The notes below the pieces were generated by a model. It saw only the letters and a program-made list of their open reading frames with translations, ran no database searches and was not told the DNA's origin. The position numbers and the translations under genes are program-made. Below are positions 10,095-46,563 of a DNA stretch of 46,563 bases, in pieces. Position 1 is the stretch's first letter. The number at the start of each line of letters is the position of its first letter. The stretch is from Enterococcus faecalis 13-SD-W-01 (GTDB lineage Bacteria; Bacillota; Bacilli; Lactobacillales; Enterococcaceae), in assembly GCA_000415185.1 (NCBI GenBank), contig KE351596.1, positions 73,279 through 119,841 on the forward strand, in the 5' to 3' direction.

Positions 10095-10213
10095 AACGGT
10101 GTTTTCTCAGTTGATCCTCGGCATTAAGCTTTTCTGCTGAAAAATATGAAAAGCTATTTTCCAGCAGAAAAGAGTCTTGATGCTCAGATCAGAGCACTGA
10201 GAAAACAACCTCT
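10095..10213 (-). repeat. Covarying-arm repeat, copy A2 (abuts the rlmN stop)
   Basis: This is a complete unit of about 119 bp. Outer arms are TTCTCAGT / ACTGAGAA with TGATC / GATCA. Middle arms are GCATTAAG / CTTGATGC. Inner arms are CTTTTCTGCTG / CAGCAGAAAAG. It is nearly identical to copy B3, 24 kb away. Read with rlmN, it begins AGAGGTTGTT, 1 nt after the rlmN stop codon. Confidence 0.9.
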
Positions 10214-10214
10214 T

Positions 10215-11282
10215 TTATACCGCTTTTTCTTTCTTCATTTGCTTACTTCTTAATTGCCCGCATGCTGCATCAATGTCTGTTCCATGTTCTTTTCGGATAA
10301 CACAGTTGACGCCGTTTTTCTTCAATACATCATAGAAACGCAAAACATCTTTTTTCGAGCTGCGTGAATATTGGTCGTGTTCGCTGACTGGATTATAAGG
10401 AATCAAGTTCACATAGGCCAATTTTTTCTTGTCTTTTAACAACTCTGCCAATTCTTGGGCATGTTCTGGACGGTCGTTTACATGACTTAACATGATATAT
10501 TCAAAAGTGATTCTGCGGTTTGTTTTCTCTAAATATTCATCGATTGCTTCCATCAATTTTTCAATCGGGAAACTGCGGTTGATCCGCATGATCGATGTCC
10601 GCACATCGTTATTTGACGCATGCAAAGAAATCGCCAAGTTTACTTGAAGTCCATTGTCCGCAAATTCTTTGATTTTATTTGCTAACCCGCTTGTTGAAAC
10701 AGTGATATGACGTGCACCGATTGCTAATCCCTTTGCATCATTGATGATATGAAGGAAGTCCATCACATTATCATAGTTGTCAAAAGGTTCGCCGATTCCC
10801 ATCACAACGACGTGAGAAACGCGTTCTCCTAGTTCTCTTTCGTCAAAATAACGTTGGACCATCATGATTTGGGCAGTAATTTCTCCCGCTGTCAAATCAC
10901 GATTTTTTTTCAACAATCCGCTAGCACAAAATGTACAGCCGATATTACAGCCAACTTGCGTAGTTACGCAAACAGACAAGCCATATTCTTGACGCATCAA
11001 AACTGTTTCGATCATATTTTTGTCAGGAAGTTCAAATAAATATTTTACTGTACCGTCAGAAGCTTCTTGGACGATTACTTGATTCAATGGATTGATGATA
11101 AAATGTTCAGATAATTTATCAGTTAGATGTTTTGATAAGTTCGTCATTTCTGAAAATTCTGCGACTCTTTTTTGGTAAAGCCATTCCCAGATTTGTGCAG
11201 CTCTGAACTTCTTTTCGCCATTTTCTAAAAGCCAGTTAGTCAGCTCTTCTTTTCTCAAGCCGTAGATGGATTGTTTTTCCAC
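10215..11282 (-). CDS. rlmN: Dual-specificity RNA (adenine-C2) methyltransferase RlmN
   Basis: This 355-residue radical-SAM enzyme makes m2A2503 in 23S rRNA and m2A37 in some tRNAs. The [4Fe-4S] cluster motif C-x3-C-x2-C is at Cys112, Cys116 and Cys119. The methyl-carrying Cys is in DAACGQL (about residue 341). Other family blocks are [12 protein letters not shown] and AISLHASN. Translation starts at GTG (11282) after AGAGGGA. Its stop is immediately followed by repeat copy A2, which therefore forms the start of the 3' UTR. Confidence 0.96.
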
Positions 11283-11317
11283 GTTCGTTTCCCTCTTTTT
11301 CTCAAATTTCGCTACAT

Positions 11318-11346
11318 ACTATAACTTATTATGCCAGCTTATGCAA
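11318..11346 (-). promoter_or_regulatory. Promoter of rlmN
   Basis: On the minus strand TTGCAT (11341-11346) and TATAGT (11318-11323) are 17 bp apart, about 35 bp before the GTG start. Confidence 0.7.
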
Positions 11347-11388
11347 TAGATCACAAACGGAAAATAAAAGCTTTCTTTCCTATACTAT

Positions 11389-12177
11389 TTACCAAAAACT
11401 GTCAAAGCCGCTGTCGCCGTCATCATTATCGTCTCCTGATACGAGGTTATTCCAGAATAAATAAATCATGTCTAACAAGATTTCCAAGGAGCTAGCGAGC
11501 AAGATGGCGATAAAATAAATACCGCCTAATCGTTTAGCTTCATCATAATTCTGCATCGCTTGATTTGCATCGTAAATCAAATAAGCTAAAAACAATACCG
11601 TGGTGCCAAATGAGATAGAGTAAGCGAACCAAGATAAATGAAAAAACTGCAGGTTAAGCACACTGTCCATAGCAAGACTTGCCAGAGCCAAGCTTAGAAA
11701 ACCGCCCCAATTGGTCAAATCTTTTTTCGTAAGTAAACCGATCGAACAAAATAAAAAAGTAACTCCTATTGTTTCCAGAATGGCTGGCACGATCATTTGA
11801 TTAGGAAAATAAAGAAAGATGAGGCCCATAGGAAAACCCAGAACAACTAAAGATAAAAGGAAAAAAAAGAGCGATATTACCGGTTTGGTATACGCTGTCG
11901 ATCGACAACACCATATTGGGACTATCCCTAAAAAGACCAGCAGACATGTTCGAATAAACCCATGCAGGGCAACGGTAAAAGTAAACAACCATTGAACATA
12001 AAGCGAATTTGTATGGATCAGGTAATCTGATGCTAACAAACATAATCCAAACGAGAGGACCGCAGCAATCATCGTCAGATAACCATAGCGGATTTTGGCA
12101 GCTGAATTGATCCTGCCGCTTAAACGATCGATTTGTCTAGAATTTCTTTGCTGACTAAAAGCCATTTCAACACCCAT
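11389..12177 (-). CDS. Predicted multi-pass membrane protein of unknown function
   Basis: A cytosolic N-terminus of ~30 polar residues is followed by about seven hydrophobic segments. The protein ends in an acidic tail rich in Asp and Gly (GDDNDDGDSGFDSFW). I do not recognise a family. The start is uncertain. ATG 12177 and ATG 12165 are both in frame with only weak ribosome binding sites, and a TTG at 12207 is less likely. It lies between rlmN and ftsK with no clear partner; the ftsK terminator (12338-12366) precedes it, so it has its own promoter. Confidence 0.7.
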   Translation of the reverse strand: MGVEMAFSQQRNSRQIDRLSGRINSAAKIRYGYLTMIAAVLSFGLCLLASDYLIHTNSLYVQWLFTFTVALHGFIRTCLLVFLGIVPIWCCRSTAYTKPVISLFFFLLSLVVLGFPMGLIFLYFPNQMIVPAILETIGVTFLFCSIGLLTKKDLTNWGGFLSLALASLAMDSVLNLQFFHLSWFAYSISFGTTVLFLAYLIYDANQAMQNYDEAKRLGGIYFIAILLASSLEILLDMIYLFWNNLVSGDDNDDGDSGFDSFW

Positions 12178-12337
12178 TTCTTTAGATAATTTTCCTATAA
12201 CTGGCAAAAAATCGCAGTTCTTTTTCTTTTGCTGCCAGATTTAGGCTATTTTTTGTTAGGATACCCGACTTAAATAAAATGATCCTAATAATCCGATTAT
12301 TTTTTCGATAGAAAGAGTGCGCGAATTTCACGCAAAA

Positions 12338-12366
12338 AAGGCTGGACAATTGAATTGTCCAGCCTT
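12338..12366 (-). terminator. Terminator of ftsK
   Basis: AAGGCTGGACAATT pairs perfectly with AATTGTCCAGCCTT. On the minus strand it is followed by TTTTTTGCG. It lies 30 bp past the ftsK stop. Confidence 0.92.
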
Positions 12367-12396
12367 GGTGCTGTTTGTTATTTCCATGTCAGAGTT

Positions 12397-14835
12397 TTAA
12401 AGTGTCTGATCTTCTTCCATCATCGGCTCTGCCGGCTCTTCCATTTGCTCGACAAATACTTTCCGCGGCTTGCTGCCTTCTGACGGTCCGACAACTCCCC
12501 GTTCTTCTAATTCATCTACTAAACGGGCAGCACGGTTATAACCGATCCTGAACCTGCGCTGCAGCAATGAGATACTTGCCGTTTGCATCTCTACGACTAA
12601 CGCTTTTGCTTCTTCATATAATTCGTCTTGCGGATTTTCAGAAGAAGCCGGTGTTTCCACTTCATCTGTCGGCATCATTTTTTCTTCATAATGTGCTTCT
12701 TGCTGATCCGTTACAAAGCTTACGATCCGTTCGACTTCATGGTCAGAGATAAAGGCGCCTTGGACACGTATTGGTTTGTTTTCACCCATCGGCAAGAAGA
12801 GCATATCTCCTCGTCCAAGCAGTTTTTCCGCACCATTTGAATCAATGATCGTCCGTGAATCTGTCCCGCTGGAAACTGCAAACGCCATCCGTGAAGGCAC
12901 ATTCGCTTTAATAATCCCAGTAATAACATCTACACTTGGTCGTTGTGTAGCCAAAATCATATGGATTCCTGCAGCCCGCGCCATTTGAGCAAGACGAATG
13001 ATTGCATCTTCCACTTCATTACTTGCGACCATCATCAAATCTGCCAACTCATCAACAATCACGACGATAAATGGCAAGGTTGGATGTTTCGCTCCTTCTT
13101 CCAGATTTCTTTGTTGGATAAATTCATTGAACCCTGAAATGTTTCTTACCCCAGTTGCTGCAAACTTTTCATAACGTTCTTCCATTTCTTGAACGACTTT
13201 CTGCAACGCTTGTGCCGCTTTTCTTGGGTTAGTAACAACAGGTGTCAATAAATGCGGGATACCATTATAAACATTCAATTCCACCATTTTCGGATCGATC
13301 ATCATCAGTTTCACTTCATGCGGTTTTGCGCGCATCAAGATGCTTGTGATGATCCCGTTGATCGCCACTGATTTCCCGCTCCCTGTTGAACCAGCAATCA
13401 GCAAGTGGGGCATTTTCGTCAAATCGGCTGTTTGGACTTTTCCTGAGATATCACGACCTAAAGGAACTTCTAACAGTTTATCTGGATGATTTGGCTGTGC
13501 TTCGATGATTTCTCTGAAAGAAACCATACTTATCTTGCTGTTTGGCACTTCGATCCCGATCAAAGATTTCCCAGGAATCGGTGCTTCCATCCGAACATCT
13601 TTTGCAGCTAAAGCCAATGCAATATCATCTGTCAAACTAACGATTTTGCTGACTTTGACCCCTACAGCAGGCTGGACTTCAAATTTGGTTACAGAAGGCC
13701 CTAAACTTGCTTTAACGACTTTAGCATCAACACCGAAACTTTGGAAAGTTTGTTCCAGCACGCCAATATTCTTCTCGATTTTCTTATACTCATCACTTTG
13801 ATCTGTTGAAGGCAGAGAATCAAGCAGGTCTGTTGGCGGCAATTCGTAATCTTGGTTTTCTGTCTCGCCAGTGATCTTAAATTCAAGCAATCCGCCATCT
13901 TCTTCTGGTGTTTCTTCCTTTTCAAAGGAATTGTTTTGCGCTTGCGGCTGTAATGGTTTTTCCATTACAGGTTGTGCATTTTCTTGGAAACTGTTGATTG
14001 GCACAAAACTTAATTGTTCTGGTTCTGTTTCCGGTAACTCTTCTTGTTGTGTTTCTGCTAATTCTTCACCAGGCGTTTTTTTGCGTACTCGATTTTTTTC
14101 GATTTCTGCCAATTCTGCTTCTGCGGCTTCTTTTGCTGCTTGGCGCTTAGCATTTCGTTCTTCTTCCCGCTGCTGCTTCCGTGCTTCTTTTGCTGCTTGT
14201 TTTTTCGCTTGTTCTTCTGGATCGCCAGCTAACCATTCTTGCACGTTTTCGCCAAAATGCTGAATGGATTCCAACAGCTGGTAGCCTTCCAGATTACTGA
14301 ATAGAAAAGCACCTGCACCCATTAGTAAGATTGCTGCTAAATAACTGCCCGGCTGAGCAATCAAAAAGTACGTGAAGTTGTACAACATGGCGCCCAGCAT
14401 CCCGCCGCCTACATTTCGGCCGACTTGGCTTTGCCGGATATCACTGCTTAGCAGATCCCACGTAGTTCCAAGAATATTGGGCTCTCCTGTATGCAGCTTG
14501 CCAAATAGATGTGCATGGAATAATAGCAGGATACCTAAGTAAAGAAGAGCGCCTCCAATCCAGCGTCGCGGTTTCGTGATCGAAAAGTCTCTGTTTTTGA
14601 CGACGATCCAAAACCCAAAAGCTGCTAATAAAAGACAGAGAAACGGAAATGTATTTCCCGCAACGATCCGAAAACCGTTCGCGATCAAAGTCCCCAAAAA
14701 CCCGAGTCTCAAAAAGCCGAAGACAGCTAAAAAAATCACTGCAAAGCCTAATATGATCATCAGCGTTTGTTCTTGCTGCTGCTGTTGTTTTTTCGTCTTC
14801 CGCTTTTTTTTCGCAGGACGTTTTTTCTTTGCCAT
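12397..14835 (-). CDS. ftsK: DNA translocase FtsK/SpoIIIE
   Basis: This 812-residue septal DNA pump clears chromosomal DNA from the closing septum. A Lys/Gln-rich N-terminus precedes four membrane segments (residues ~23-180). Then comes a charged linker rich in Glu, Gln and Ala (~190-350). The RecA-like motor has Walker A GSTGSGKS at ~482-489 and Walker B FIVVIVDELADLMM. A C-terminal winged-helix gamma domain (~725-795, with RRFRIGYNRAARLVDELEE) reads the polar KOPS/SRS sites. I chose the ATG at 14835 (MAKKKRPAKK) because GAGG is 9 nt upstream; further upstream ATGs at 14865, 14850 and 14841 are in frame. Confidence 0.96.
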   Translation of the reverse strand: MAKKKRPAKKKRKTKKQQQQQEQTLMIILGFAVIFLAVFGFLRLGFLGTLIANGFRIVAGNTFPFLCLLLAAFGFWIVVKNRDFSITKPRRWIGGALLYLGILLLFHAHLFGKLHTGEPNILGTTWDLLSSDIRQSQVGRNVGGGMLGAMLYNFTYFLIAQPGSYLAAILLMGAGAFLFSNLEGYQLLESIQHFGENVQEWLAGDPEEQAKKQAAKEARKQQREEERNAKRQAAKEAAEAELAEIEKNRVRKKTPGEELAETQQEELPETEPEQLSFVPINSFQENAQPVMEKPLQPQAQNNSFEKEETPEEDGGLLEFKITGETENQDYELPPTDLLDSLPSTDQSDEYKKIEKNIGVLEQTFQSFGVDAKVVKASLGPSVTKFEVQPAVGVKVSKIVSLTDDIALALAAKDVRMEAPIPGKSLIGIEVPNSKISMVSFREIIEAQPNHPDKLLEVPLGRDISGKVQTADLTKMPHLLIAGSTGSGKSVAINGIITSILMRAKPHEVKLMMIDPKMVELNVYNGIPHLLTPVVTNPRKAAQALQKVVQEMEERYEKFAATGVRNISGFNEFIQQRNLEEGAKHPTLPFIVVIVDELADLMMVASNEVEDAIIRLAQMARAAGIHMILATQRPSVDVITGIIKANVPSRMAFAVSSGTDSRTIIDSNGAEKLLGRGDMLFLPMGENKPIRVQGAFISDHEVERIVSFVTDQQEAHYEEKMMPTDEVETPASSENPQDELYEEAKALVVEMQTASISLLQRRFRIGYNRAARLVDELEERGVVGPSEGSKPRKVFVEQMEEPAEPMMEEDQTL

Positions 14836-14990
14836 TTTCATATCCCTCATTTCATCAACTTCCATTATACAAAAAAAAGCAAGCGAACAAAAGTTTTGTT
14901 TAAAAGAAGATCTCTTTTGCCGCTGCTGAAGAAACTAATTTTTTCTTAAGAAATCTTTCTTTGTGATCCGAAAACTTTTTTTGACAAAAA

Positions 14991-15031
14991 AATTTGCATA
15001 AAGCCAAAGAACACTTGACTTCATGCAAATT
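14991..15031 (-). terminator. Terminator of the phospho-beta-glucosidase gene
   Basis: AATTTGCAT / ATGCAAATT with additional AAG/CTT pairing forms a hairpin. On the minus strand it is followed by TTTTTTTGTC. It begins 8 bp past the stop. Confidence 0.75.
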
Positions 15032-15038
15032 CGTTTGA

Positions 15039-16622
<1,584 letters not shown>

Positions 16623-16633
16623 TCATGAAAAAA

Positions 16634-16665
16634 ATCGAGAAAAAGCATTTTTGCTTTCTCTCGAT
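16634..16665 (-). terminator. Terminator of the amino-acid ABC operon
   Basis: ATCGAGA-AAAAGCA pairs with TGCTTT-CTCTCGAT. On the minus strand it is followed by TTTTTTTCATG. It lies 18 bp past the stop of the binding-protein gene. Confidence 0.88.
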
Positions 16666-16682
16666 CAAGTTTGTTTGGATAA

Positions 16683-17513
16683 TCAATTCTCTTTTGCTGT
16701 GTCATGGGGTGTCACATCATCACCAAACCATTTTTCGGAAATTTTCAGAAATTCTCCTGTTTCTTCCAAATGAGCAATGCCGTCATTGATTTTTTCAACA
16801 AGTGTATCATCTTCTTTACGGACACCCACGGCAAAATCTTCACTTTCGTACGCGCCGGTGATCGTATTGAATTGATCTAGTTCTCCTCTTTGTTTCAAGT
16901 AGTAATTCGCGTAAACCTTGTCCATCAGCAAGCCATCGATCCGTCCGCTTTTCAAATCAATCAATGCTTCATTGAAACTGTCATATAAAACTGCTTCTTG
17001 GTTTTTTATGATATTTTTCAAGACTTCTGGCTGTTTGTTGAATGCTTCAAAACCAGAAGAACCATTTTGCGCACCTAAGATCTTCCCTTTCATTTGGGCA
17101 AAGCTAGTGATATTTGAAGATTTTGGTGTTACTAGAATCTGGTCATTTTCCATATACGGTTTTGTAAATTGGACTTTTTCTGCTCGCGCTGGCGTTTTGG
17201 TATAGCCGTTCCAAATCAAATCGATTGTGCCGTTTGTCAATTCGAATTCTTTCATTGACCAGTCGATGGGCTGAAAATTCACTTTGATATCATATTGGGC
17301 AAAAACTGCTCGCGCAAGATCGATGTCAAACCCAGTTATTTTGCCGTCTTTATCGCGAAATCCCATAGGTACGAAGGTATCATCCAAACCAATCGTGATT
17401 TCTTTTTCTTCTTGGATAGAGGCCCATGTATCGCCCTCTGGTGTTTTTTTCGCACAGCTGGAAAAAAGAAAGAGACCAAAAACTAATGCTAAAAATAAGC
17501 TTGTTTTTTTCAT
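16683..17513 (-). CDS. Amino-acid ABC transporter substrate-binding lipoprotein
   Basis: This 276-residue family-3 solute-binding protein is extracellular and lipid-anchored. The signal peptide ends at FSSC with Cys20; Phe at -3 is unusual but tolerated. The ITGFDIDLARAVF block and the domain-crossing KPYMENDQILVTP stretch are typical of polar amino-acid binders. It is the last gene of a permease-ATPase-binding protein operon with the order 18815 to 16683. The T-box upstream suggests its ligand is the amino acid read by the leader, predicted histidine. Confidence 0.92.
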   Translation of the reverse strand: MKKTSLFLALVFGLFLFSSCAKKTPEGDTWASIQEEKEITIGLDDTFVPMGFRDKDGKITGFDIDLARAVFAQYDIKVNFQPIDWSMKEFELTNGTIDLIWNGYTKTPARAEKVQFTKPYMENDQILVTPKSSNITSFAQMKGKILGAQNGSSGFEAFNKQPEVLKNIIKNQEAVLYDSFNEALIDLKSGRIDGLLMDKVYANYYLKQRGELDQFNTITGAYESEDFAVGVRKEDDTLVEKINDGIAHLEETGEFLKISEKWFGDDVTPHDTAKEN

Positions 17514-17519
17514 GTTCTT

Positions 17520-18161: not shown

Positions 18162-18173
18162 GCTTTTTTCCTC

Positions 18174-18815: not shown

Positions 18816-18841
18816 TTTTTCTCCTCCTTTTAATAAAAAAA

Positions 18842-18867
18842 GTCCCCTTGGCTTGCGCCAAGAGGAC
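18842..18867 (-). terminator. Second T-box terminator (proximal to the gene)
   Basis: GTCCTCTTGG / CCAAGGGGAC (one G-T pair) with the loop CGCAAG is followed on the minus strand by TTTTTTT. The alternative antiterminator pairs GAGG of the second T-box with CCTC. Confidence 0.92.
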
Positions 18868-18875
18868 ACAGATCG

Positions 18876-18887
18876 CGTGGTTCCACC
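18876..18887 (-). promoter_or_regulatory. Second T-box sequence (tRNA acceptor-end binding bulge)
   Basis: GGTGGAACCACG on the minus strand is preceded by GA, so the antiterminator helix is GAGG with CCTC. The bulge is UGGA. Confidence 0.93.
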
Positions 18888-18957
18888 TCTATTTATCTTT
18901 TTTTCGCAAAAAAGAACTCCAGCAGTCTTTTCCCAGATGATTAGTGTCAAAAAAAAA

Positions 18958-18981
18958 TCCTTTGATCCGCAGATCAAAGGA
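18958..18981 (-). terminator. First T-box terminator (distal)
   Basis: TCCTTTGATC / GATCAAAGGA with a 4-nt loop is followed on the minus strand by nine T. This stop acts before the second module is even transcribed. Confidence 0.93.
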
Positions 18982-18990
18982 CGTTAATTA

Positions 18991-19002
18991 CGTGGTTCCA
19001 CC
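18991..19002 (-). promoter_or_regulatory. First T-box sequence (tRNA acceptor-end binding bulge)
   Basis: GGTGGAACCACG on the minus strand is preceded by AA, so the antiterminator helix is AAGG with CCTT. The change from GAGG/CCTC in the second module is compensated, showing that both helices are maintained. Confidence 0.93.
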
Positions 19003-19221
19003 TTTTTTCGCTGATTTTCTCACAAAAATACAGCCTCATCTGGTCATCAAACAATGACCGCAGCTTTAACGGGCTTTCCCGGGTTTTCCTACTCTATTCA
19101 AAAAACCGACTCCAAGATGTGTTTCACTATCCGCTGCTGCCTCTTTTCACCACCCAGAGACTCTCTTAAAAACAACGCATCGCTACTCTTCTTTTCGATG
19201 TCATTTTATTAATTTAAGAGT

Positions 19222-19271: not shown

Positions 19272-19301
19272 AGAGAAAAAGATAAAAAAGGAGGATGCGG
19301 C

Positions 19302-19787: not shown

Positions 19788-19804
19788 AAATCGTCTGAAC
19801 AGAC

Positions 19805-19877: not shown

Positions 19878-19882
19878 CTAAA

Positions 19883-33993: not shown

Positions 33994-34033
33994 AAACCCC
34001 CTTGAAACACGAATGACTGTTTCAAGGGGGTTT
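33994..34033 (-). terminator. Terminator after prs2 and repeat array B
   Basis: AAACCCCCTTGAAACA / TGTTTCAAGGGGGTTT is a 16-bp perfect stem with an 8-nt loop. It marks the left limit of array B, so prs2 mRNA would carry the whole array as a 3' UTR of about 550 nt. Confidence 0.85.
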
Positions 34034-34084
34034 ATTTGATTAAAGAAAGTTGCGAAATTTAGGTTTTTTTTCTAAAAAAAACTT

Positions 34085-34171
34085 TTGTTGCTAAGCTTTA
34101 TTTAGGAAAAACTATTTCCAATTTTAAAAGAGTCTTAATGCTCAGATCAGAGCACTGAGAAAACAACCTCT
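34085..34171 (-). repeat. Covarying-arm repeat, copy B0 (left half decayed)
   Basis: The right half (AGAGTCTTAATGCTCAGATC, then ACTGAGAA, then ACCTCT) is intact and matches A2 and B3. The left half is decayed: a GCTAAGC trace and no AACGGTGTT. The inner arms no longer pair. Confidence 0.75.
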
Positions 34172-34176
34172 ATCAA

Positions 34177-34294
34177 AACGGTATTCAAGAACCAACTCCT
34201 TCGGCATTAACTCAAAATTTCGCAAAATATGAGAAGCTATTTTACGAAATTCTTCTTTAATACTCGGAGCTGAACGGTTCTTTCATGACCTCTT
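34177..34294 (-). repeat. Covarying-arm repeat, copy B1
   Basis: This complete unit has AACGGTATT at the left and GACCTCT at the right. Outer arms are AAGAACC / GGTTCTT, the next CTCC / GGAG, inner AATTTCG / CGAAATT. None of these arm sequences is shared with A2, B2 or B3, yet each pairs. The loop segment (AAAATATGAGAAGCTATTTT) is conserved. Confidence 0.9.
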
Positions 34295-34298: not shown

Positions 34299-34419
34299 AA
34301 CGGTGTTCGCAAAGCTGACTTTCGGCATTAAGCTTTATCCAGAAAAAATGTGAAAAGCCATTTTCTCTGGATAAAGAGTCTTAATTGCTCAAGTCAAAAC
34401 GCTTTGCTCACAACCTCTT
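34299..34419 (-). repeat. Covarying-arm repeat, copy B2
   Basis: This complete unit has outer arms GCAAAGC / GCTTTGC, next TGACTT / AAGTCA, middle GCATTAAG / CTTAATTGC (one extra T), and inner CTTTATCCAGA / TCTGGATAAAG (11 bp). The arms differ from B1 and B3 but all pair. Confidence 0.92.
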
Positions 34420-34423: not shown

Positions 34424-34542
34424 AACGGTGTTTTCTCAGTTGATCTTCGGCATTAAGCTTTTCTGCTGAAAAATATGAAAAGCTATTTTCCAGCAGAAAA
34501 GAGTCTTGATGCTCAGATCAGAGCACTGAGAAAACAACCTCT
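34424..34542 (-). repeat. Covarying-arm repeat, copy B3 (abuts the prs2 stop)
   Basis: This unit is nearly identical to A2. Read with prs2, it starts AGAGGTTGTT directly after the TAA stop with no spacer. Three tandem complete units plus B0 make up array B. Confidence 0.92.
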
Positions 34543-36290: not shown

Positions 36291-38195
36291 ATGGATAAAA
36301 TTTTAGCAAAAAAAGATTCTTACGAAGCAGTAAATGAAGAATGGCTAAAAACAGCTGTTATCCCGGCGGACAAACCCGCAACTGGCGGTTTTGAAGTCTT
36401 GGTCCAAACAATCGATAAACAGTTGATGGCTGATGTAGAAAAGATGGCGGAAGAACCGCAGAAACTTTCTTCAAAACTGCAAAACTTTTTAGCTTACTAT
36501 AAACTTGCTAACGATTATCCAAAAAGAAATGAAGCTGGCGCAAAGCCGCTCCTTCCGCTTCTGGAAAAAATCGAACAACTGGATTCTTTTGACACATTAA
36601 ATGCAGCCTTACCTGATTGGCTGTTTGAAAGTCTGCCGCTTCCGATCGACTTTGATGTAGATGCAGATATGAAAAATGCGCAGACACATGCTTTCTTTGC
36701 TTCTCCGCCTTCTTTGTTTTTACCTGACAAAACTTATTATGAAGCGGACCATCCAAACGGCGCACAGCTTCTGTCTGTCTTTTTCGATATGATGGTGCAA
36801 TTGTTAGAGCTCGCCGGAAAAGAAAAAACAGAAGCCGAAACAATCACAGAACAAGCGATTTGCTTTGACAAAATGCTTGCGCCTCATGTGAAAAGTGCCG
36901 AAGAAAATGCTAATTACAGTGAAATGTATAATCCGCAATCTTTTGACACATTTATCCAGCACACTTCTTTGATCGACTTGAAAAAAACGGTTTTAGGTCT
37001 GATTGGCACAGAGCCAGACAAAGTGATCGTCACAGATCCAGTTTATTTCGAGCATCTTTCAGAAATCTTGACAACCACGCACTTTCCATTGATGCGCAGT
37101 TGGATGATCGTTCAAACTGTACGCGGATTAAGCAGTTATCTTTCAGAAGAGTTTCGTCAAATCGGCGGTACGTTCTCTCGTATTTTATCTGGTACAGAAG
37201 AAGCGATGCCGCAGAAAAAAGCAGCGTACTATTTAGCCCTTCGTCAATTTGACCAAGTGATTGGGGACTACTATGGCAAAAAATATTTTGGTGAAGCTGC
37301 CAAAAACGACGTAAAACAAATGATTGAAAAAATGATTGGCGTTTATAAAAAACGTCTGGAAAACAACACTTGGTTAAGCAGCAAAACAAGAGAAAAAGCC
37401 ATCACCAAATTAGACAAACTGGGTATCCAAGTAGGTTATCCAGATACGATTCCTGCTTTATTTGACCAATTTATTACAGTTCCAGCAGAAGAAGGCGGCA
37501 CTTTATTAAGCAATGCGTTACATTTCAGCAAATTGTCTTACAAAGATCGTTTAAGCAAATGGAATAAGCCTGTTGATCGTTCCGAATGGGAAATGAGTGC
37601 GAATACAGTGAATGCTTACTACCATCCATTCCGCAACGTCATTGTTTTCCCAGCAGCGATTTTACAAGCGCCTTTTTATAGTATCGATCAATCAAGTTCG
37701 GCTAATTTCGGCGGTATCGGTGCAGTGATTGCGCACGAGATTTCCCACGCATTTGACAACAACGGGGCATTATTCGATGAATTCGGCAATCTGAATAACT
37801 GGTGGACAGACGAAGATTTCAAACAATTCCAAGCAAAAGCCGAAGCAATGATTCAACAATTTGATCAACTGCCTTTTGCTGATGGAAAAGTAAACGGAAA
37901 ATTGACTGTATCTGAAAATATCGCTGATGCTGGCGGCCTCAGCTGCGCACTAGAAGCAGCAAAACAAGAAGAAGATGTTTCGTTGGAAGACTTCTTTGTC
38001 AATTGGGCAACGATTTGGCGCACGAAAGCAAAACCAGAATATCAAGCCCTTTTATTACAAATCGATGTACATGCGCCAACGAAACTTCGGGCAAATGTCC
38101 AACCAAAAAATCTGGAAGAATTTTATGAGACCTTTGCTATCACTGAAGCAGATGAAATGTATCTAGCACCAGAGAAGAGAGTGCATATCTGGTAG
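36291..38195 (+). CDS. pepO: Endopeptidase O, M13 family zinc metallopeptidase
   Basis: This 634-residue neprilysin-type endopeptidase has the zinc site HEISH (His482, Glu483, His486) and the third ligand Glu542 in ENIADAGG. The substrate-binding NAYYHPFRN block also matches M13. There is no signal peptide, as in lactococcal and streptococcal PepO, so it cleaves peptides of up to about 35 residues in the cytoplasm, such as those brought in by Opp. AGGAGG is 9 nt from the ATG. The TAG stop merges with repeat copy C (TAGAGGTTGTG). Confidence 0.96.
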   Translation: MDKILAKKDSYEAVNEEWLKTAVIPADKPATGGFEVLVQTIDKQLMADVEKMAEEPQKLSSKLQNFLAYYKLANDYPKRNEAGAKPLLPLLEKIEQLDSFDTLNAALPDWLFESLPLPIDFDVDADMKNAQTHAFFASPPSLFLPDKTYYEADHPNGAQLLSVFFDMMVQLLELAGKEKTEAETITEQAICFDKMLAPHVKSAEENANYSEMYNPQSFDTFIQHTSLIDLKKTVLGLIGTEPDKVIVTDPVYFEHLSEILTTTHFPLMRSWMIVQTVRGLSSYLSEEFRQIGGTFSRILSGTEEAMPQKKAAYYLALRQFDQVIGDYYGKKYFGEAAKNDVKQMIEKMIGVYKKRLENNTWLSSKTREKAITKLDKLGIQVGYPDTIPALFDQFITVPAEEGGTLLSNALHFSKLSYKDRLSKWNKPVDRSEWEMSANTVNAYYHPFRNVIVFPAAILQAPFYSIDQSSSANFGGIGAVIAHEISHAFDNNGALFDEFGNLNNWWTDEDFKQFQAKAEAMIQQFDQLPFADGKVNGKLTVSENIADAGGLSCALEAAKQEEDVSLEDFFVNWATIWRTKAKPEYQALLLQIDVHAPTKLRANVQPKNLEEFYETFAITEADEMYLAPEKRVHIW

Positions 38196-38300
38196 AGGTT
38201 GTGAAAGAACCGTTCAGCTCCAGCATTAAAGAAGAATTTCGTAAAATAGCTTCTCATATTTTGCGAAATTTTGAGTTAATGCCGAAGAAACAATACTGTA
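38194..38300 (+). repeat. Covarying-arm repeat, copy C (abuts the pepO stop, decayed far arm)
   Basis: Read on the plus strand it starts AGAGGTTGTGAAAGAACC inside the pepO stop codon. It matches the reverse complement of B1 through GAATTTCG / CGAAATT and TTAATGCCGAAG. After that the outer partner arm is lost (AAACAATACTGT) and only AACACC of the far end remains. Orientation relative to the host gene is the same as in prs2 and rlmN. Confidence 0.85.
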
Positions 38301-38308
38301 AACACCAT

Positions 38309-38346
38309 AAAAAGAAGCCCGACACAAGATGTCGGGCTTCTTTTTT
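38309..38346. terminator. Bidirectional terminator between pepO and pncA
   Basis: AAAAGAAGCCCGACA / TGTCGGGCTTCTTTT with a 5-nt loop is flanked by A and T runs. Confidence 0.92.
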
Positions 38347-38348
38347 AA

Positions 38349-38915: not shown

Positions 38916-38927
38916 GTCAAAGACCTC

Positions 38928-39620: not shown

Positions 39621-39636
39621 AAATAATCCTTCTTTC

Positions 39637-39912: not shown

Positions 39913-39920
39913 GTATCTTC

Positions 39921-40484
39921 CTACTTTCTTCCCGCGGATAGTTCCCAATATTGGATAGCATATAATGTTTTTGCATCACAGATTACTTGATCTGCGATTG
40001 CTTGTTTTGCTTCAGGTAAAGTCAGCGCGTAAAGTTCAAGTACTTCATCTTCGTCTTGTTCCAAAGGGTTCAGTACTTTTTCTAAATCATGCGCATGATA
40101 GATGTGCAGTATTTCGTTCGCGAATCCTGGAGATAGATACATTGAAGTCAGGTGTGTCAAAGACTGTGCGCGATAGCCGGTTTCTTCTTCCAGCTCTCTC
40201 AGTGCAGTTTTTTCAGGACTGTTATTTTCTCCTGGATCGATTTTGCCAGCAGGAATCTCTAAAATCACTTTTTCTAAAGGTTTTCTAAATTGTTTCACCA
40301 AAAGCAGCCGATCTTGTTCATCAAAGGCAACGATCCCTACACCACCAGGATGAAAAACTAATTCCCGCTGTCCGATTTTTCCATCGGGCAAGCGGACTTG
40401 GTCAACAGCGACATCGATGATTTTCCCTTTGAATATTTCTTTGCGCTCTAGCGTCTTCTCTTCAAATTGCTCATACTCCATCAT
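39921..40484 (-). CDS. ADP-ribose pyrophosphatase, Nudix family
   Basis: This 187-residue hydrolase has the Nudix box G-E-N-N-S-P-E-K-T-A-L-R-E-L-E-E-E-T-G-Y (~85-104). The upstream EIPAGKIDPGE and downstream MYLSPGFANEILHIY segments are typical of NudF-like ADP-ribose pyrophosphatases, which remove free ADP-ribose. It is the first gene of a four-gene operon with mtnN and pncA. Consecutive ATGs at 40484 and 40481 are both possible starts. Confidence 0.93.
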   Translation of the reverse strand: MMEYEQFEEKTLERKEIFKGKIIDVAVDQVRLPDGKIGQRELVFHPGGVGIVAFDEQDRLLLVKQFRKPLEKVILEIPAGKIDPGENNSPEKTALRELEEETGYRAQSLTHLTSMYLSPGFANEILHIYHAHDLEKVLNPLEQDEDEVLELYALTLPEAKQAIADQVICDAKTLYAIQYWELSAGRK

Positions 40485-40719
40485 ACTCTATCCACCATAC
40501 TTTCTTTGTAATAATAACCGCTTTGACGATTTTTTTCAATTTGTCGTCTTACTCTTCTTTAGTTTACCATAAGTAAATCTTACAAATTCTCTAAATCTAT
40601 AAAATCAATCTTTAGACGGATACTCTTTTCCAGGAGGACTGTGCTAAAATAAATAAAGTAAACGAAAAGAAGGTTAACCGGTAAATAACCCAATAATCGA
40701 ACTTCTGGAGGGAGTATAT
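40485..40719. other. Divergent promoter region between nudix operon and xpaC-telA
   Basis: It is 235 bp of AT-rich sequence. It should hold both promoters; candidate -10 elements (TAAAAT near 40645) are visible but the -35 elements are poor, so I do not assign them. No hairpin or repeat copy seen. Confidence 0.4.
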
Positions 40720-41385
40720 ATGAAAAAACGCACCTGGCTGTTTTTGATCGTTTTGATTCTTGGTATGGTCTTCATTGGGCATGCAGGCACAACTTCTGGT
40801 GTCACTTGGATTTTCCTATTTGGTGCTGCTCTGCTGATTTGGGGCATATTCGGCGGGAAAAACAAAAAAACAACACAAGCAGAAATGCCTGGACTGTCTA
40901 AAGATTTGGAAGAACACTATTTAACAAGCGGTATGTCATCTAGTGAGATTGATCTTTTTAGACAAACGATGCACCAAACAAAAGCAGATATCACGAAGCT
41001 GCAAGAAAACATGAACAAAACAGCAAAATTAAAAGCAATCGATTTACGCCACAATACGACGAAAGCTTCCAAAGCTTTATTCAAAGAATTAGTTAAAGAA
41101 CCAACACGGCTCCATGAAGCCAGTCACTTTCTTTATACGCACCTGCCTAACTTGATCGATTTGACGGATAAATATATCGAGATCAATGATCATGAAATCA
41201 AAAACAAGCAGACCTATGCAAAATTAGAAGAAAGCGCGCAAATCATCGATCAGCTGGCTAGTCTGATCAGCCAAGATTACCAACGTTTTGTTGCAGATGA
41301 TCTAGAAGACATCGATGTAGAGATTTCAATTGCAAAAAACAGTTTAAAACAAGATAATAGAACAAACACCGATACAAAATCCTAA
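40720..41385 (+). CDS. xpaC: XpaC-family membrane-anchored protein
   Basis: This 221-residue protein has two N-terminal membrane segments (residues ~6-24 and ~28-45) followed by a long helical cytosolic domain. This is the layout of XpaC, named for 5-bromo-4-chloroindolyl phosphate hydrolysis in Bacillus. Its gene is nearly always followed by a TelA gene, as here after 17 bp. The pair is thought to act in envelope or toxic-anion stress, but the mechanism is unknown. GGAGGG is 9 nt from the ATG. Confidence 0.85.
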   Translation: MKKRTWLFLIVLILGMVFIGHAGTTSGVTWIFLFGAALLIWGIFGGKNKKTTQAEMPGLSKDLEEHYLTSGMSSSEIDLFRQTMHQTKADITKLQENMNKTAKLKAIDLRHNTTKASKALFKELVKEPTRLHEASHFLYTHLPNLIDLTDKYIEINDHEIKNKQTYAKLEESAQIIDQLASLISQDYQRFVADDLEDIDVEISIAKNSLKQDNRTNTDTKS

Positions 41386-41402
41386 GATAATAGGAGGAAC
41401 TT

Positions 41403-42599
41403 ATGATGAATGAAGAAAATAAACCAACGGACGTGACGCCTGTCAACGACACGTTAGAAGATCTTTTAAATAATCCATTTTCAACACCGACAAATTCACT
41501 GACACAGTCGCAAGAAGCAGAAATCACTCAGCTGCAAGAACAACAGCAGGCAGCACGTTTGATCGACAAATTACCGCCTGAACGTCAAGCTCAAGCAAAA
41601 GAATTAGCGGCAAAGATCGACACAGCCGATGCCCAGTCAGTTATCAGCTACGGATCAGCAGCACAAACCAAATTGAGCGAGTTCTCGCAATCGATGCTGA
41701 ACCACGTCCAAGTACAAGACATTGGGCCTGTCGGAGATTCTTTGACTGAATTGATGTATCGTTTACAAGAAGCAAATCCCGATGAACTTCGTGCAGGAGA
41801 AGGAAACATTTTCCAACGTGTGTTTGGTAAAGTAAAACAATCCATTTATGAAGTAACCGCAAAATACCAAAAAATCGGCGCACAAATCGACAAAATCGCT
41901 GTCAAACTAGATAAAGAAAAAGACGGTCTGTTAAAAGACAACTTGATGCTTGAACAGCTTTATCAAAAAAACAAAGATTACTTCGATGCGTTGAATATCT
42001 ACATTGCAGCTGGTGAATTGAAAATGGAAGAACTTCAAACCGTGACGATCCCCGCAGCAATGAAAAAAGCAGAAGAAACAGGCGACCAAATGGATGTACA
42101 GATCGCAAATGACTATACACAATTCCTAGATCGTCTAGACAAACGAACACACGATTTGCGTTTAGCTCGTCAAATCACGATCCAACAAGCACCGCAGATT
42201 CGTTTGATCCAAAACACAAACCAAGCATTAGCGGAAAAAATCCAAGCTTCTGTCGCAACAGCGATCCCGCTTTGGAAAAACCAAGTTGTGATTGCTTTAA
42301 CTCTTCTTCGTCAAAAAGATGCTGTTACTGCACAACGCCAAGTTTCTGAAACAACGAATGACTTGCTGAAGAAAAATTCTGAGATGCTGAAAATCTCTGC
42401 GATCGAAACAGCCAAGGAAAATGAACGTGGCATCGTAGATATCGAAACATTGCAAAAAACACAAAACGATCTTGTGGAAACTATCCAAGAAACATTACGT
42501 ATCCAACAAGAAGGAAAAGAAAAACGTCGCCATGCGGAAGTAGAATTAAGCCACATGGAAGAAGACTTGAAACAAAAACTATTGGATCTGACACAATAA
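41403..42599 (+). CDS. telA: Toxic anion resistance protein, TelA family
   Basis: This 398-residue, strongly helical cytosolic protein is built of long coiled-coil stretches. It has the family blocks [26 protein letters not shown] (cited here as residues ~158-183) and [29 protein letters not shown] (~240-268). TelA proteins are linked to tellurite and cell-wall stress resistance; how is unclear. Two adjacent ATGs (41403, 41406) follow AGGAGG. Forms an operon with xpaC. Confidence 0.93.
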
Positions 42600-42646
42600 A
42601 AAAGGTTGTAGACGAGCGAAACAACTCGTCTACAACCTCTTTTTTA
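42600..42646. terminator. Bidirectional terminator after telA
   Basis: AAAAAGGTTGTAGACGAG pairs with CTCGTCTACAACCTCTTTTT (one mismatch) around an 8-nt loop. It serves telA and the convergent permease. Confidence 0.92.
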
Positions 42647-44029
42647 TTTATTGATTTTTTCATTCATTAAGCTGTGTTTATACCCATAACCAAAATAAAT
42701 CACTAAACTAATGACCATTACGATGGCAAAAACAAGCCATGTTACTGCTTGCAGCCGCAACATCAAGACTACACACGCTGCAATGGAAAGAATCGGCAGC
42801 AGCGGTACAAAAGGGACTTTGAACTCCCCTTTTTTCGGCTGGCCAAACATTTTTCTCAATTTCAACAGCCCTAAACTGACGAGCATTAGGTACGCTAACG
42901 CACTGATATTCGTCAATTCTGCTAAGATATCCAGTGGAAAAGCACCTGCAAAGATCATCGCGATGATTCCTGCTGTATATGTGGCCTTTTTAGGCGTATG
43001 ATGCTTTTTATCGATTTCTTTCATATAATTAGGCAAAAGTCCATCACTGCTGATTGCATACAATAAACGTGCCAACGAATACATCATAGAGATCGTCACT
43101 GTCAAAAGTGTCAAAATCGCGCCAACAGAAATAACTCCGCCGATACTTCCATGTCCGATATAACGCATCGCAAATGCCACAGGATCATTCACACCTAGTT
43201 CTGTAAATGGGACCATTCCTGTCAAAATCAATGTCACCACGATATATAATGCTGTTGCAATCAAAATCGAACCAATGATTCCTCTTGGCACATCTTTTTG
43301 CGGATTCTTTACTTCTTCAGCAGCCATCGCTACGGCGTCAAATCCTAGAAAAGCAAAGAAAACTAATGCGGCACCGTCTAGGACACCAGAAAAACCAAAA
43401 GGCATAAACGGTTGCCAATTGTCAGGCTTCACGAAGAAGATCCCTACTGCAACGAACAGTAAAATAATAGCAAATTTAACAACAACCATCATATTATTCA
43501 GACGCAAGGCTTTTTTCGCTTCTAAAGATACAATGTACGTAACAAAAATAACTACTAATACCGCAATCAAATCAATATACGTCCCGTTCGCTGCGTTATA
43601 TCCTCCTGTCAGTGCTTGAGGTAAATTCACGCCAAAACTGGCTAAGAATCCTTGTACATAACCAGACCAGCCAGATGCAACAGATGAAACCGCTAATAAA
43701 AATTCACAAATCAGCAACCAGCCTGTCAACCACGCCGCAAATTCACCAAACACAACATATAAATAAGCATACGGTCCGCCAATAACAGGTACGCGTGAAG
43801 AAAATTCAGCAAAGCTTAACCCAGATAACACTACAACAATTGCAGCTAAGACGAATGAAAGTGACAGCGCTGGTCCTGCATTTTGATTCGCTGCCACACC
43901 AGTAACGACAAAAATCCCCGTTCCAATGATTGCACCGACGCCCAACATGATCAAATCAGCTGTTTTTAGTTCTTTTTTCATTCCGCTTATTTTATTGTTT
44001 TCAATTGTCTTTTTACGGAACAAATCCAT
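42644..44029 (-). CDS. Amino acid permease, APC superfamily (cationic amino acid type)
   Basis: This 461-residue transporter has 12 predicted membrane segments. The substrate-binding GVGAIIGTGIFVVTG block in segment 1 and FFAFLGFDAVAMAAEEVKNP in segment 6 match the CAT-like group (YhdG/YfnA) of APC transporters. The exact amino acid is not deducible. GGGGGAAG precedes the ATG. Monocistronic between terminators. Confidence 0.92.
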   Translation of the reverse strand: MDLFRKKTIENNKISGMKKELKTADLIMLGVGAIIGTGIFVVTGVAANQNAGPALSLSFVLAAIVVVLSGLSFAEFSSRVPVIGGPYAYLYVVFGEFAAWLTGWLLICEFLLAVSSVASGWSGYVQGFLASFGVNLPQALTGGYNAANGTYIDLIAVLVVIFVTYIVSLEAKKALRLNNMMVVVKFAIILLFVAVGIFFVKPDNWQPFMPFGFSGVLDGAALVFFAFLGFDAVAMAAEEVKNPQKDVPRGIIGSILIATALYIVVTLILTGMVPFTELGVNDPVAFAMRYIGHGSIGGVISVGAILTLLTVTISMMYSLARLLYAISSDGLLPNYMKEIDKKHHTPKKATYTAGIIAMIFAGAFPLDILAELTNISALAYLMLVSLGLLKLRKMFGQPKKGEFKVPFVPLLPILSIAACVVLMLRLQAVTWLVFAIVMVISLVIYFGYGYKHSLMNEKINK

Positions 44030-44050
44030 TTAGTCTTCCCCCTTTTTAAA

Positions 44051-44096
44051 AAAAGAGGATGTGAAAATAGTCAAAAATGGCTATTCACATCCTCTT
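44051..44096 (-). terminator. Hairpin upstream of the permease, second terminator of the GRP gene
   Basis: AGAGGATGTGAA / TTCACATCCTCT with an inner TAG/CTA pair is followed on the minus strand by a T run. It gives a back-up stop for transcription from the sugar transporter gene. Confidence 0.75.
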
Positions 44097-44211
44097 AAAT
44101 TTGAATGAGCAAAAAATGATCTCTTCCGTCAGCTTAAAGCTGACGGAAATCTTGAAGTCATGAAAGCTGTCCAATGTACAAATACTTCATTCCATCACTT
44201 CTTCTCAAAAA

Positions 44212-44236
44212 GAAAACAGCTTATTAAGCTGTTTTC
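44212..44236 (-). terminator. Terminator overlapping the end of the GRP transporter gene
   Basis: GAAAACAGCTTA / TAAGCTGTTTTC is a perfect 12-bp inverted repeat. On the minus strand its left arm encodes the last codons and stop (ATGAAAACAGCTTAA), and CTTTTTG follows. The stop codon is inside the stem. Confidence 0.82.
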
Positions 44237-45090
44237 ATGTACCCTAATAGAATACCACCTAAAATAACTAAAATACAACCAGTAACTACGTAAACAAGTT
44301 CTTTTTTAGTTTTTCTTTCACCTAAGATGAAGATTCCGCCAAGTGTAGAAATGATGATCCCCATTTGAGAAAGTGAGAAACCAACAGCTAGTCCAAGACT
44401 CTTAACTGTCAATAACATACAGATATTCCCTAAGCCCCACAATAGTCCTGAAGCCATGTTTTTCCAAACATATTGGTCCATTTTAACTTTCTTGAAGGCA
44501 AAGAAGCTTGCGCCTAAGATCATACCGATACTTTGTGGTAAGATAACAGCTAATGCATCAAGTCCAGCCCAGTTGATGATGATCGTATACACACCATAAC
44601 CAATTGTTGAATAAATCAACGCTCTGAATCCTTTAGCAAAATCAAACATTTTGTTGTCTGTGTCAGGTGCAGCATTTTTGTCGCGGCGCGCTGTTAAATA
44701 GGCACCTAGGACAAGCAAAGCTAGTGCAAGGAATCCGTATACAAAATCTTTCGTTTTTGTCCATTCATGGAAGAAAACGGCTCCCGCAATCGTATTCAAA
44801 ATTAATTGAAAACCAGTTGAAAGAGGCAAACCTACAGATACACCCATAAATTTCATTCCGTGGAACTGACCATTTTGACCAACACTCCATGCTAGACCTG
44901 ATAAAAATCCGATCAAGAAAACCCATGGTGTAATTGTAGGACCAACGACGAAAAATACGATCAGCGAGAATAAAAACGCGCCAATTGTCATTCCTAATGT
45001 CTGTTGATTTGCGTCTCCGCCAATTTTACCACTGACTAAACCAATACTACCCCATGCAAGCATAGGTACTAATGCTATTAAAATCTCCAT
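44224..45090 (-). CDS. GRP-family sugar transporter (glucose/ribose uptake, GlcU/RbsU-like)
   Basis: This 288-residue transporter of the drug/metabolite superfamily has 10 predicted membrane segments. Family features are the start MEILIALVPMLAWGSIG, SGLAWSVGQNGQFHGMKFMG and the C-terminal SLSQMGIIISTLGGIFILGE. It takes up glucose or ribose by proton symport. A one-mismatch cre site lies in its upstream region, so carbon catabolite control is likely. AAAGGAG precedes the ATG. The gene's last codons form a terminator arm. Confidence 0.9.
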   Translation of the reverse strand: MEILIALVPMLAWGSIGLVSGKIGGDANQQTLGMTIGAFLFSLIVFFVVGPTITPWVFLIGFLSGLAWSVGQNGQFHGMKFMGVSVGLPLSTGFQLILNTIAGAVFFHEWTKTKDFVYGFLALALLVLGAYLTARRDKNAAPDTDNKMFDFAKGFRALIYSTIGYGVYTIIINWAGLDALAVILPQSIGMILGASFFAFKKVKMDQYVWKNMASGLLWGLGNICMLLTVKSLGLAVGFSLSQMGIIISTLGGIFILGERKTKKELVYVVTGCILVILGGILLGYMKTA

Positions 45091-45132
45091 GTCTATTCTC
45101 CTTTATTTTTCACATGTAAAAAAACTTATCAA

Positions 45133-45146
45133 AGAAAACGTTAACA
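45133..45146. promoter_or_regulatory. Candidate cre (CcpA) site of the GRP gene
   Basis: On the minus strand TGTTAACGTTTTCT fits the cre consensus TGWAARCGYTWNCW with one mismatch. It lies about 45 bp before the start codon, between possible -35 (TTGTGT) and -10 (TAAGTT) elements, where CcpA would repress. Confidence 0.55.
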
Positions 45147-45179
45147 ACACAAGAAAAAAATTTCAACTCTCACGATTTT

Positions 45180-46205
45180 CTAACGTTTTTCATTATAAAA
45201 ATTTAATGTTGGGAAGAATAATACCATGGTTGTCCCCTTTTTTTCAACTGATTCGGCGGACAATTCGATTCCTAGCTTTTCAGCTAAACTTTTCGCTAAA
45301 TATAAGCCTAAACCAGTGGAATGCTGCTTGCTTAACCGACCATTTGTTCCAGTAAATCCTTTATCAAAAATTCGTCCAAGATCTTCTTTTGGTATGCCGA
45401 TCCCTGAGTCTTTCAGAAGAAGTTTCACACCATTTTCTGTTTTTTCGATACGGATTTCGATTTTGCCATGATTAGGTGTATATTTTATCGCATTGCTGAT
45501 CAATTGTTGAAAAATAAACGCTACCCACTTTGCATCTGTTAGTACTGGCTGGTCTTCTCCTATAATCTCGTAATGCAGATTTTTTTGGATAAAATAGTTT
45601 GCTTGGCTGCGGATCACAGGCTGGATGATTGCCTTCAAATCGTATTCTTGGATCAGATAATCTCTAGAAAAACTGTCTAAACGAGCATAATACAAGACTT
45701 GTTCTACATACTCGTTGATTTTCGCTAACTCATTTTCTAATTGCATATATTTTTGGTCGTCAATGTCAAATTCAATGGAACGGACGAGCAATTCAGAAGC
45801 AGCTAGCGGTACCTTGATTTCATGAACCCAAGAATCAATGTAGTCTTTTTGATTTTTTTGATTGGTGATTGCTTCTTGCATCACCTCTTGATGATCTCGG
45901 ATCAACTGATTGACATATTCTTCAACTAATTTTTCTTCGGATGTGTGTCCGCCGTCCAGATAATTTTGCAGCGGAGATTCTTTACGTTCTGCATCAAGTT
46001 TTTTCCACCAGCGTCGCTTACTTAGATAAACAGCCGTAAGATAGACGATCAAAAAAACCGCTTCAATCAGCATCAAATAAGCGATGATTTCCCAATCAAT
46101 GGTGATATCTGGCGTCAGCCACATCACAAATGCGGTCAGGAGCACAAAAAAAAGCCAGCCGAGGATCAACGACCACTGATCTTTTAAATAATCTCTGAAT
46201 TTCAT
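45180..46205 (-). CDS. Intramembrane-sensing histidine kinase, BceS-like
   Basis: This 341-residue sensor kinase has two membrane segments (~11-30 and ~40-60) with almost no external loop, the hallmark of intramembrane-sensing kinases that respond to cell-wall antibiotics via a BceAB-type transporter. The phospho-acceptor His128 is in SWVHEIKVPL. The N box is ISNAIKYTP, G1 is DSGIGIP, F box is GRIFDKGFTG and G2 is STGLGLYLAKSL. The ATG at 46205 follows AAAGGAG. No response regulator is inside the window; it may lie just outside on the right. A terminator hairpin stands only ~20 bp upstream of the start. Confidence 0.92.
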   Translation of the reverse strand: MKFRDYLKDQWSLILGWLFFVLLTAFVMWLTPDITIDWEIIAYLMLIEAVFLIVYLTAVYLSKRRWWKKLDAERKESPLQNYLDGGHTSEEKLVEEYVNQLIRDHQEVMQEAITNQKNQKDYIDSWVHEIKVPLAASELLVRSIEFDIDDQKYMQLENELAKINEYVEQVLYYARLDSFSRDYLIQEYDLKAIIQPVIRSQANYFIQKNLHYEIIGEDQPVLTDAKWVAFIFQQLISNAIKYTPNHGKIEIRIEKTENGVKLLLKDSGIGIPKEDLGRIFDKGFTGTNGRLSKQHSTGLGLYLAKSLAEKLGIELSAESVEKKGTTMVLFFPTLNFYNEKR

Positions 46206-46228
46206 AAATTCTCCTTTGCTTGAACTAA

Positions 46229-46268
46229 AAAAGTGAGCTTGCAGATTTTTTCTGAGCAACTCACTTTT
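46229..46268 (-). terminator. Terminator/attenuator upstream of the histidine kinase
   Basis: AAAAGTGAG-TTGC pairs with GCAA-CTCACTTTT (one bulge) and is followed on the minus strand by TTTTTTAG. Only ~17 nt separate it from the kinase ribosome binding site, too little for a separate promoter. Kinase expression must come from read-through. Confidence 0.8.
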
Positions 46269-46280
46269 GCTAGTTGTTAA

Positions 46281-46399
46281 AATGGTATTTGAAAATCTGA
46301 TTTTTGGTATTAAGCTTTTACAACGCAAAACATAGAAAGCTGTTTTACATTGTAAAAGAGTCTTAATGCTCAGATTAGAACACTGAGAAAATGACCTCT
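46281..46399 (-). repeat. Covarying-arm repeat, copy D1
   Basis: The inner arms CTTTTACAA / TTGTAAAAG are unlike any other copy yet pair perfectly. Right half TCTTAATGCTCAGATT and GACCTCT are standard; the left end is AATGGTATT. Outer pairing is only partial (AATCTG / CAGATT). Confidence 0.85.
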
Positions 46400-46403
46400 A
46401 TTA

Positions 46404-46520
46404 AACGGTGTTCACTCAGCTGCTTCTCGGCACTAAGTCAAATTTTTGCAAAAGTTTGAGAAGCGACTTTCGAAAAATCCTCCTTACTGCTCAAAGCAGA
46501 ACGCTGAGTTCACAACCTCT
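46404..46520 (-). repeat. Covarying-arm repeat, copy D2
   Basis: Complete unit. Outer arms ACTCAGC / GCTGAGT, next TGCTT / AAGCA, inner ATTTTT / AAAAAT. AACGGTGTT and ACCTCT ends are intact. Confidence 0.88.
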
Positions 46521-46525
46521 AGCCA

Positions 46526-46563
46526 AACGGTGCTCATGAACCAACTCCTTCGGCATTAATTCA
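46526..46563 (-). repeat. Covarying-arm repeat, copy D3, cut by the window edge
   Basis: AACGGTGCT, then GAACCAACTCC and TTCGGCATTAA, the same left half as B1. The unit continues beyond the window. Confidence 0.85.

Follow-up and report, generated by a model that had tools for sequence, protein, structure and literature searches.

A 46,563-nt stretch of contig KE351596.1 (assembly GCA_000415185.1), deposited as Enterococcus faecalis 13-SD-W-01 and here called the window, carries ten copies of a palindromic repeat unit at four loci, three of them adjoining the 3′ ends of rlmN-like, prs-like and pepO-like genes (Table 1). A first-pass annotation had reported about ten complete or partial copies whose paired arms covary. 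All ten were located, the inner and outer arms that it quoted are present in the sequence, and eight of the ten were also returned by a covariance-model search. Two of its copies needed redescription, the pepO copy and the longer form at the first locus, and its strand had to be reversed: the fold-relevant sense strand, the one running on from the stop codon, is complementary to the strand it used. Sense-directed anchoring at stop codons was not foreseen there. Its observation is confirmed, while its interpretation as a selected fold is partly supported.

Table 1. Repeat units, adjoining genes and terminator-like hairpins, in window numbering
Feature	Position	Strand	Remark
Long unit, 172 bp	9919..10090	-	Extra side hairpin; sense strand AGAGG...CCGTT is minus
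119-bp unit	10095..10213	-	AGAGG end 1 nt past rlmN stop codon
Partial unit	34085..34171	-	AGAGG half retained, other end unrecognisable; left limit by eye
117-bp unit	34177..34293	-	
120-bp unit	34299..34418	-	
119-bp unit	34424..34542	-	Abuts stop codon of prs-like gene, 0 nt gap
116-bp unit	38194..38309	+	Own first bases AG complete the pepO TAG stop; outer arm broken
119-bp unit	46281..46399	-	
117-bp unit	46404..46520	-	
Beginning of a further unit	46526..46563	-	Cut by window end
rlmN-like gene, 355 aa	10215..11282	-	Stop abuts array A; name from our reading and the relatives matched
Ribose-phosphate diphosphokinase (prs-like), 324 aa	34543..35517	-	Stop abuts array B
PepO-like endopeptidase, 634 aa	36291..38195	+	NF052391 (NCBIfam) below its cut-off; TAG stop overlaps unit
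Terminator-like hairpin	9857..9888	-	Downstream (sense) of array A; by eye
Terminator-like hairpin	33994..34036	-	Downstream (sense) of array B; by eye
Terminator-like hairpin	38310..38346	+	Immediately 3′ of pepO unit; by eye

The conserved ends of the unit (AGAGGTTGTGA...AACACCGTTTA) lie on the strand that has the sequence of the preceding gene's mRNA. They pair with one bulged base and no open reading frame (ORF) is claimed within the unit, as in non-coding miniature inverted-repeat transposable elements (MITEs) with terminal inverted repeats. Folded singly, five of six units tried form one long hairpin (z −3.4 to −8.5); the other, 46404-46520, prefers a different structure (z −2.9). Two gap-free alignments covary well beyond shuffled and slid versions, with reference structures each taken from one member, which favours the unslid version. 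Among 16 copies of 119 nt (aligned with MAFFT) 94.4% of cells are paired and 22 of 46 pairs show two-sided change; none of 500 shuffles reaches the observed value, and sliding by one to three columns leaves 40-50% paired. Fourteen copies of 117 nt are 84.8% paired, with two-sided change at 28 of 40 pairs. Covariation also exceeds a tree-aware null, computed for 109 distinct units of the window's genome by an in-house script modelled on R-scape (tree from FastTree, states after Fitch, and 20 null alignments preserving the substitutions of each branch): 19 column pairs reach E ≤ 0.05, all 19 within the 44-pair fold, the alignment here being model-fitted (as alignments A4-A6 were), unlike the two gap-free ones. 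The core of the long form with its side hairpin has 14 matches in the window's genome, three of them degenerate by eye. The 44-nt apical hairpin at 9953-9996 is the exact inverse of 10129-10172 in the neighbouring unit. Apical-loop inversion as a regular process was rejected, with one inverted loop among 129 units (110 canonical, 18 unclassed).

The AGAGG end meets stop codons in the window's own genome (G000) and in two further species (G003 and G014; G-numbers label the genomes compared and L-numbers sequence stretches). The G000 stretches were selected around hits, whereas G003, G014 and the E. faecalis-like G015 were sampled for 400 kb each. With genes taken as ORFs of at least 80 codons from a simple caller of our own, 50 of the 120 arrays in the three species have this end at −11 to +6 of a same-strand stop codon; uniform placement within the spacer, computed for the 89 arrays whose nearest upstream gene lies on the same strand, predicts 11.2. 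The opposite array end meets a convergent stop once among the 120. The peak is sharp, with 50 arrays at −11 to +6 and only 6 at +7 to +30, which speaks against placement in the pre-terminator interval alone explaining the proximity. Element bases form part of the stop codon in half of the anchored arrays (25/50: 12 TAG at −2, 7 TAA at −1 and 6 TGA at −11). Unit-free orthologues end on a TAA of their own at the same codon (L181:3297 compared with G003, L175:8266 with G014) or, elsewhere, two or three codons further on (L201:2869, L181:14327). Arrays of mixed orientation are absent (0/71 in G000, 0/49 in G003 and G014 together), and 3-6 nt separate adjacent units at 93 of 99 junctions in the three species. 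We found no published report of stop-codon anchoring for enterococcal repeats in a search that barely covered the subscription literature, and therefore make no claim of priority.

Terminator-like hairpins follow within 130 nt of 28/62 arrays in G000 and 20/47 in G003 and G014, whereas two controls gave 8 and 9, and 9 and 3, respectively. This enrichment suggests that the arrays are probably transcribed. In G003 (L212-L231) many arrays end in one shared terminator-like hairpin, AGGGACTGTGAC...GTCACAGTCCCT, an arm of which resembles the unit start AGAGGTTGTGAC. Probable transcription, sense polarity at stop codons and a G-U bias of the sense strand (below) all speak for units kept as functional hairpins of the 3′ untranslated region, which would act in the mRNA of the preceding gene by slowing translation termination, blocking 3′ exonucleases or offering an RNase III site. 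A precedent for the first exists in E. coli, where repetitive extragenic palindromes (REPs) less than 16 nt from the stop codon reduce translation (PMC12306157). Such a role is nonetheless unlikely to account for the units, since most relatives lack a unit at the same genes and units are swapped rather than conserved by gene. In G000, G003, G005 and G013 the pepO stop is where a unit begins, the same junction in 4 of 15 species; in G009 the unit lies 16 nt downstream of the stop, and in the remaining ten no unit starts there, although G002 and G008 possibly hold remnants, by eye. Hence 11 of 15 have none at the pepO stop, and sense units at the prs stop occur in G000 only. Moreover, units on the strand opposite to their neighbouring gene pair as well as anchored ones do: the paired fractions are 0.907 (anchored) and 0.908 (opposite) in G000 (P 0.30), and 0.890 and 0.902 in G003 and G014 (P 0.35). 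A selected fold is supported, but the data do not show that a host function of each copy is what selection maintains.

What keeps the arms paired may be read from the changes themselves. Within close clusters, single stem changes give rise, on the sense strand, to 52 G-U and 20 A-C pairs; at unpaired sites these two classes of change number 36 and 45 (Fisher P 0.0006 for cells, 0.007 for distinct cluster-column events). This bias favours selection acting on the folded sense strand, and it weakened the idea that only DNA with strict Watson-Crick pairing matters, which the first pair counts had suggested; a strand-biased mutation process restricted to stems may also produce it. A tRNA wobble control was set aside, with just 6 tRNAs in the examined sequence. 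Two-sided changes in clusters retain Watson-Crick pairs in 32 cases and do not in 4. Coupled two-sided mutation through arm copying was rejected: the closest pairs of copies (0-2% divergence) show one- against two-sided changes of 5 to 0 and 6 to 0, and those at 2-5% show 15 to 2 and 36 to 1, two-sided changes increasing with distance. As one-sided changes prevail among close copies, most mutations appear to enter on one arm. With moderate confidence, we place the selection on pairing at the element's own propagation; rapid turnover could also hide decay of pairing.

Turnover was followed in the sister genomes G003 and G005, collinear across 129 kb at 93.9% identity. Site s15 holds a single unit of a different type in each sister while the flanks align. 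Elsewhere numbers or order differ. Site s44 has four units in one sister and two in the other, s93 has one and two, and pepO has three and a half and one half, respectively; s96 has three in both, in different order. For nine of 14 G003 units, G005 has a full unit at the corresponding site, and for two of these nine (plus one tie) it is the best match; 1 of 11 G005 units has its best match at the same G003 site. Since unit content differs at shared sites, the first-pass observation of arms that differ completely holds, and mostly reflects whole hairpin units of different types, both at different sites and, between sister species, in one and the same slot. A distinct unit type occurs in G003 (L213:8655, L223:1889, L230:6214) and several times in G014, starting AGAGGCTGGGAC, then ...CCGTTTATACGTGTTTAGAGC.

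Differences by entire units between sister arrays could also arise if old units were spread and shuffled by homologous recombination and gene conversion alone, without current transposition, the more so because units of an array have common ends and those of one type agree over most of their length. We regard this as quite unlikely: at s15 a single unit switches type although the ends in common extend for just about 11 nt, and new stop-anchored sites appear in single species, which recombination between units cannot create.

The repeat is neither confined to the window nor a recent local amplification. A covariance model, R1 (119 positions, 46 pairs, from the 16 gap-free 119-nt copies), gave 126 rows at E ≤ 0.01 in the window's genome, some of them one place on both strands, besides 56 blastn matches. 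Over 44 sources (the window and 43 hit-flanking stretches, 417,616 bases including overlaps) R1 returned 150 rows. These correspond to 129 units, grouped in 71 arrays, of which 28 consist of one unit, 30 of two, 11 of three and 2 of four. Runs of N, often ten, stand within or beside units in G000 (L192, L189, L206, L198 and others) as assembly gaps at hairpins, so its copy numbers are lower bounds. In the genus R1 matches all 15 genomes (E ≤ 0.001), with at least 4 to 138 rows each where the best 150 candidates per genome at most were scored. Across the family, under stricter filters (E ≤ 1e-4), matches occur in 61 of 105 genomes and in 12 of 17 genera, the genomes beyond the genus mostly having a few rows each. 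None of 12 outgroup genomes (Streptococcus, Listeria, Floricoccus, Trichococcus, Isobaculum) matches. No family of Rfam 15 fits the units at the gathering score, the window's sole match being a T-box. Seemingly diverged units, judged by eye, lie 3′ of rlmN in E. durans and E. phoeniculicola (L035, L039); the unit end in E. durans reads, by eye, ACCTTATC instead of ACCTCT.

The units are repeated, palindromic and intergenic in Enterococcus, as are the repeats EFAR and Efa-1, which bears out the suggestion that a published enterococcal repeat may be involved, at the level of kind. EFAR (Enterococcus faecalis repeats), described by De Gregorio et al. in 2009, reportedly measure 42-650 bp through assembly of sequence types, most of them 170 bp with two stem-loops, and integrate at stem-loops. 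The present repeat is likewise palindromic, intergenic and enterococcal, but its main unit has about 120 bp and one hairpin; its strong stop-codon anchoring and sense polarity may set it apart as well. EFAR are listed among MITEs (PMC3733652), and Efa-1 of E. faecalis has 65 intergenic copies of 163 bp, each a pair of adjacent stem-loops (PMC2267715). R1 found three matches in the 400 kb of G015 searched closely (E 6e-10 to 7e-8; ≤7.3e-8), each (3/3) followed by a second stem-loop, which is the paired anatomy published for Efa-1, about 163-170 bp long in the EFAR/Efa-1 kind; under the stricter family-wide search G015 has no R1 match. We take G015 to be E. faecalis, as the sole genome of 105 with an E. 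faecalis ddl primer site. Compared with Efa-1 as described, the window units mostly lack the second stem-loop, have other terminators and appear to differ largely in their arms.

Other palindromic systems are more distant. REP/BIME and REPIN elements are likewise short palindromes outside genes, and in E. coli they often lie close to stop codons (PMC12306157), but the units here are three to four times longer and no GTAG tag was noticed in them, GTAG not having been searched for as such. A REP/RAYT-type link to a Y1 transposase is not required, as G004 and G010 lack PF01797, which 13 of 15 genomes carry, and yet have 72 and 29 unit rows. Integron attC sites act as folded single strands with covarying arms and one orientation per array (PMC3053210). 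Imperfect palindromes with covarying arms, conserved ends and a conserved bulged base near them, reordered within arrays of one orientation, would suit integron-like shuffling as well, in which a tyrosine recombinase would recognise the units, in folded single-stranded form, as its recombination sites. This is very improbable, given that no integron integrase scores above the curated cut-off in any of 15 genomes, that weaker matches are ordinary tyrosine recombinases such as all 14 control genomes carry, and that the spacers between units differ in length and letters; gene cassettes are lacking too.

We consider it probable, though well short of certain, that the repeats belong with the enterococcal elements of the EFAR/Efa-1 kind, as mobile hairpin units without coding capacity that are kept paired by their own propagation through a folded single strand. 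Each unit, one long and imperfect hairpin of some 120 nt to which another hairpin is sometimes added, would insert at a gene's 3′ end, on or next to the stop codon and in sense orientation, where its first bases may replace the stop. Further units would then be added with unchanged orientation, at spacings of 3-6 nt, and entire units would be gained, lost and swapped between sites, presumably by moving as such; homologous recombination between them may help to reshuffle arrays. The folded sense strand, as single-stranded DNA or RNA, would be the form recognised at copying, and this recognition, rather than any benefit to each copy's gene, would preserve arm complementarity.

Several observations weigh against mobility of this sort. 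Of the 120 arrays, 70 are not stop-anchored (28 behind an opposite-strand gene, 33 more than 30 nt off, 3 without a gene), some of them coming after diverged or N-interrupted units, and the G015 units lie 11 and 14 nt past a stop and once behind an opposite gene. Over all pairs the G-U preference is weak and owes much to few columns: sense G-U (A-C on the strand first read) against G-T stands at 208 to 99 in G000, with a fixed column removed, and at 181 to 63 in G003 and G014. No transposase is tied to the units, PF01797 (Y1 transposase) being the only transposase family searched; by-eye inspection of junctions revealed no constant target duplication, and the spacers between units vary from 3 to 6 nt. 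Plasmid and phage collections hold no match to the one 123-bp copy tried (blastn word 11, E 1e-5), so that horizontal transfer is not indicated. Sister genomes were compared over a single stretch of 129 kb.

More tentatively, a putative machinery may copy folded single-stranded hairpins onto stop codons, always in sense and with the unit able to supply the stop, so that gene 3′ ends would be slots turning over faster than species diverge and arm complementarity an imprint of copying. Small palindromic repeats are common in bacteria, and whether their fold serves host RNA or the element usually stays open. The question is testable here, with many copies, strict covariation, strand-resolved mutations, sites that are empty in some close relatives and filled in others, and an insertion point fixed to within a few bases. 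Should stop-codon placement prove to be a targeting rule, mobile elements would have a new means of finding harmless sites; the placement also alters the C-termini and 3′ ends of many genes.

Among the neighbouring genes, RlmN of the window's genome is 89-91% identical to RlmN of E. lactis, E. durans, E. mundtii and others. A gene next to array A (9230-9787, minus strand) passes the cut-off of a model for AAC(6')-Ii, the family of enterococcal aminoglycoside acetyltransferases. Finally, the T-box leader lies at 18974-19207, and a conserved T-box motif is repeated 115 nt away (18863-18893, minus strand), perhaps as a tandem T-box.

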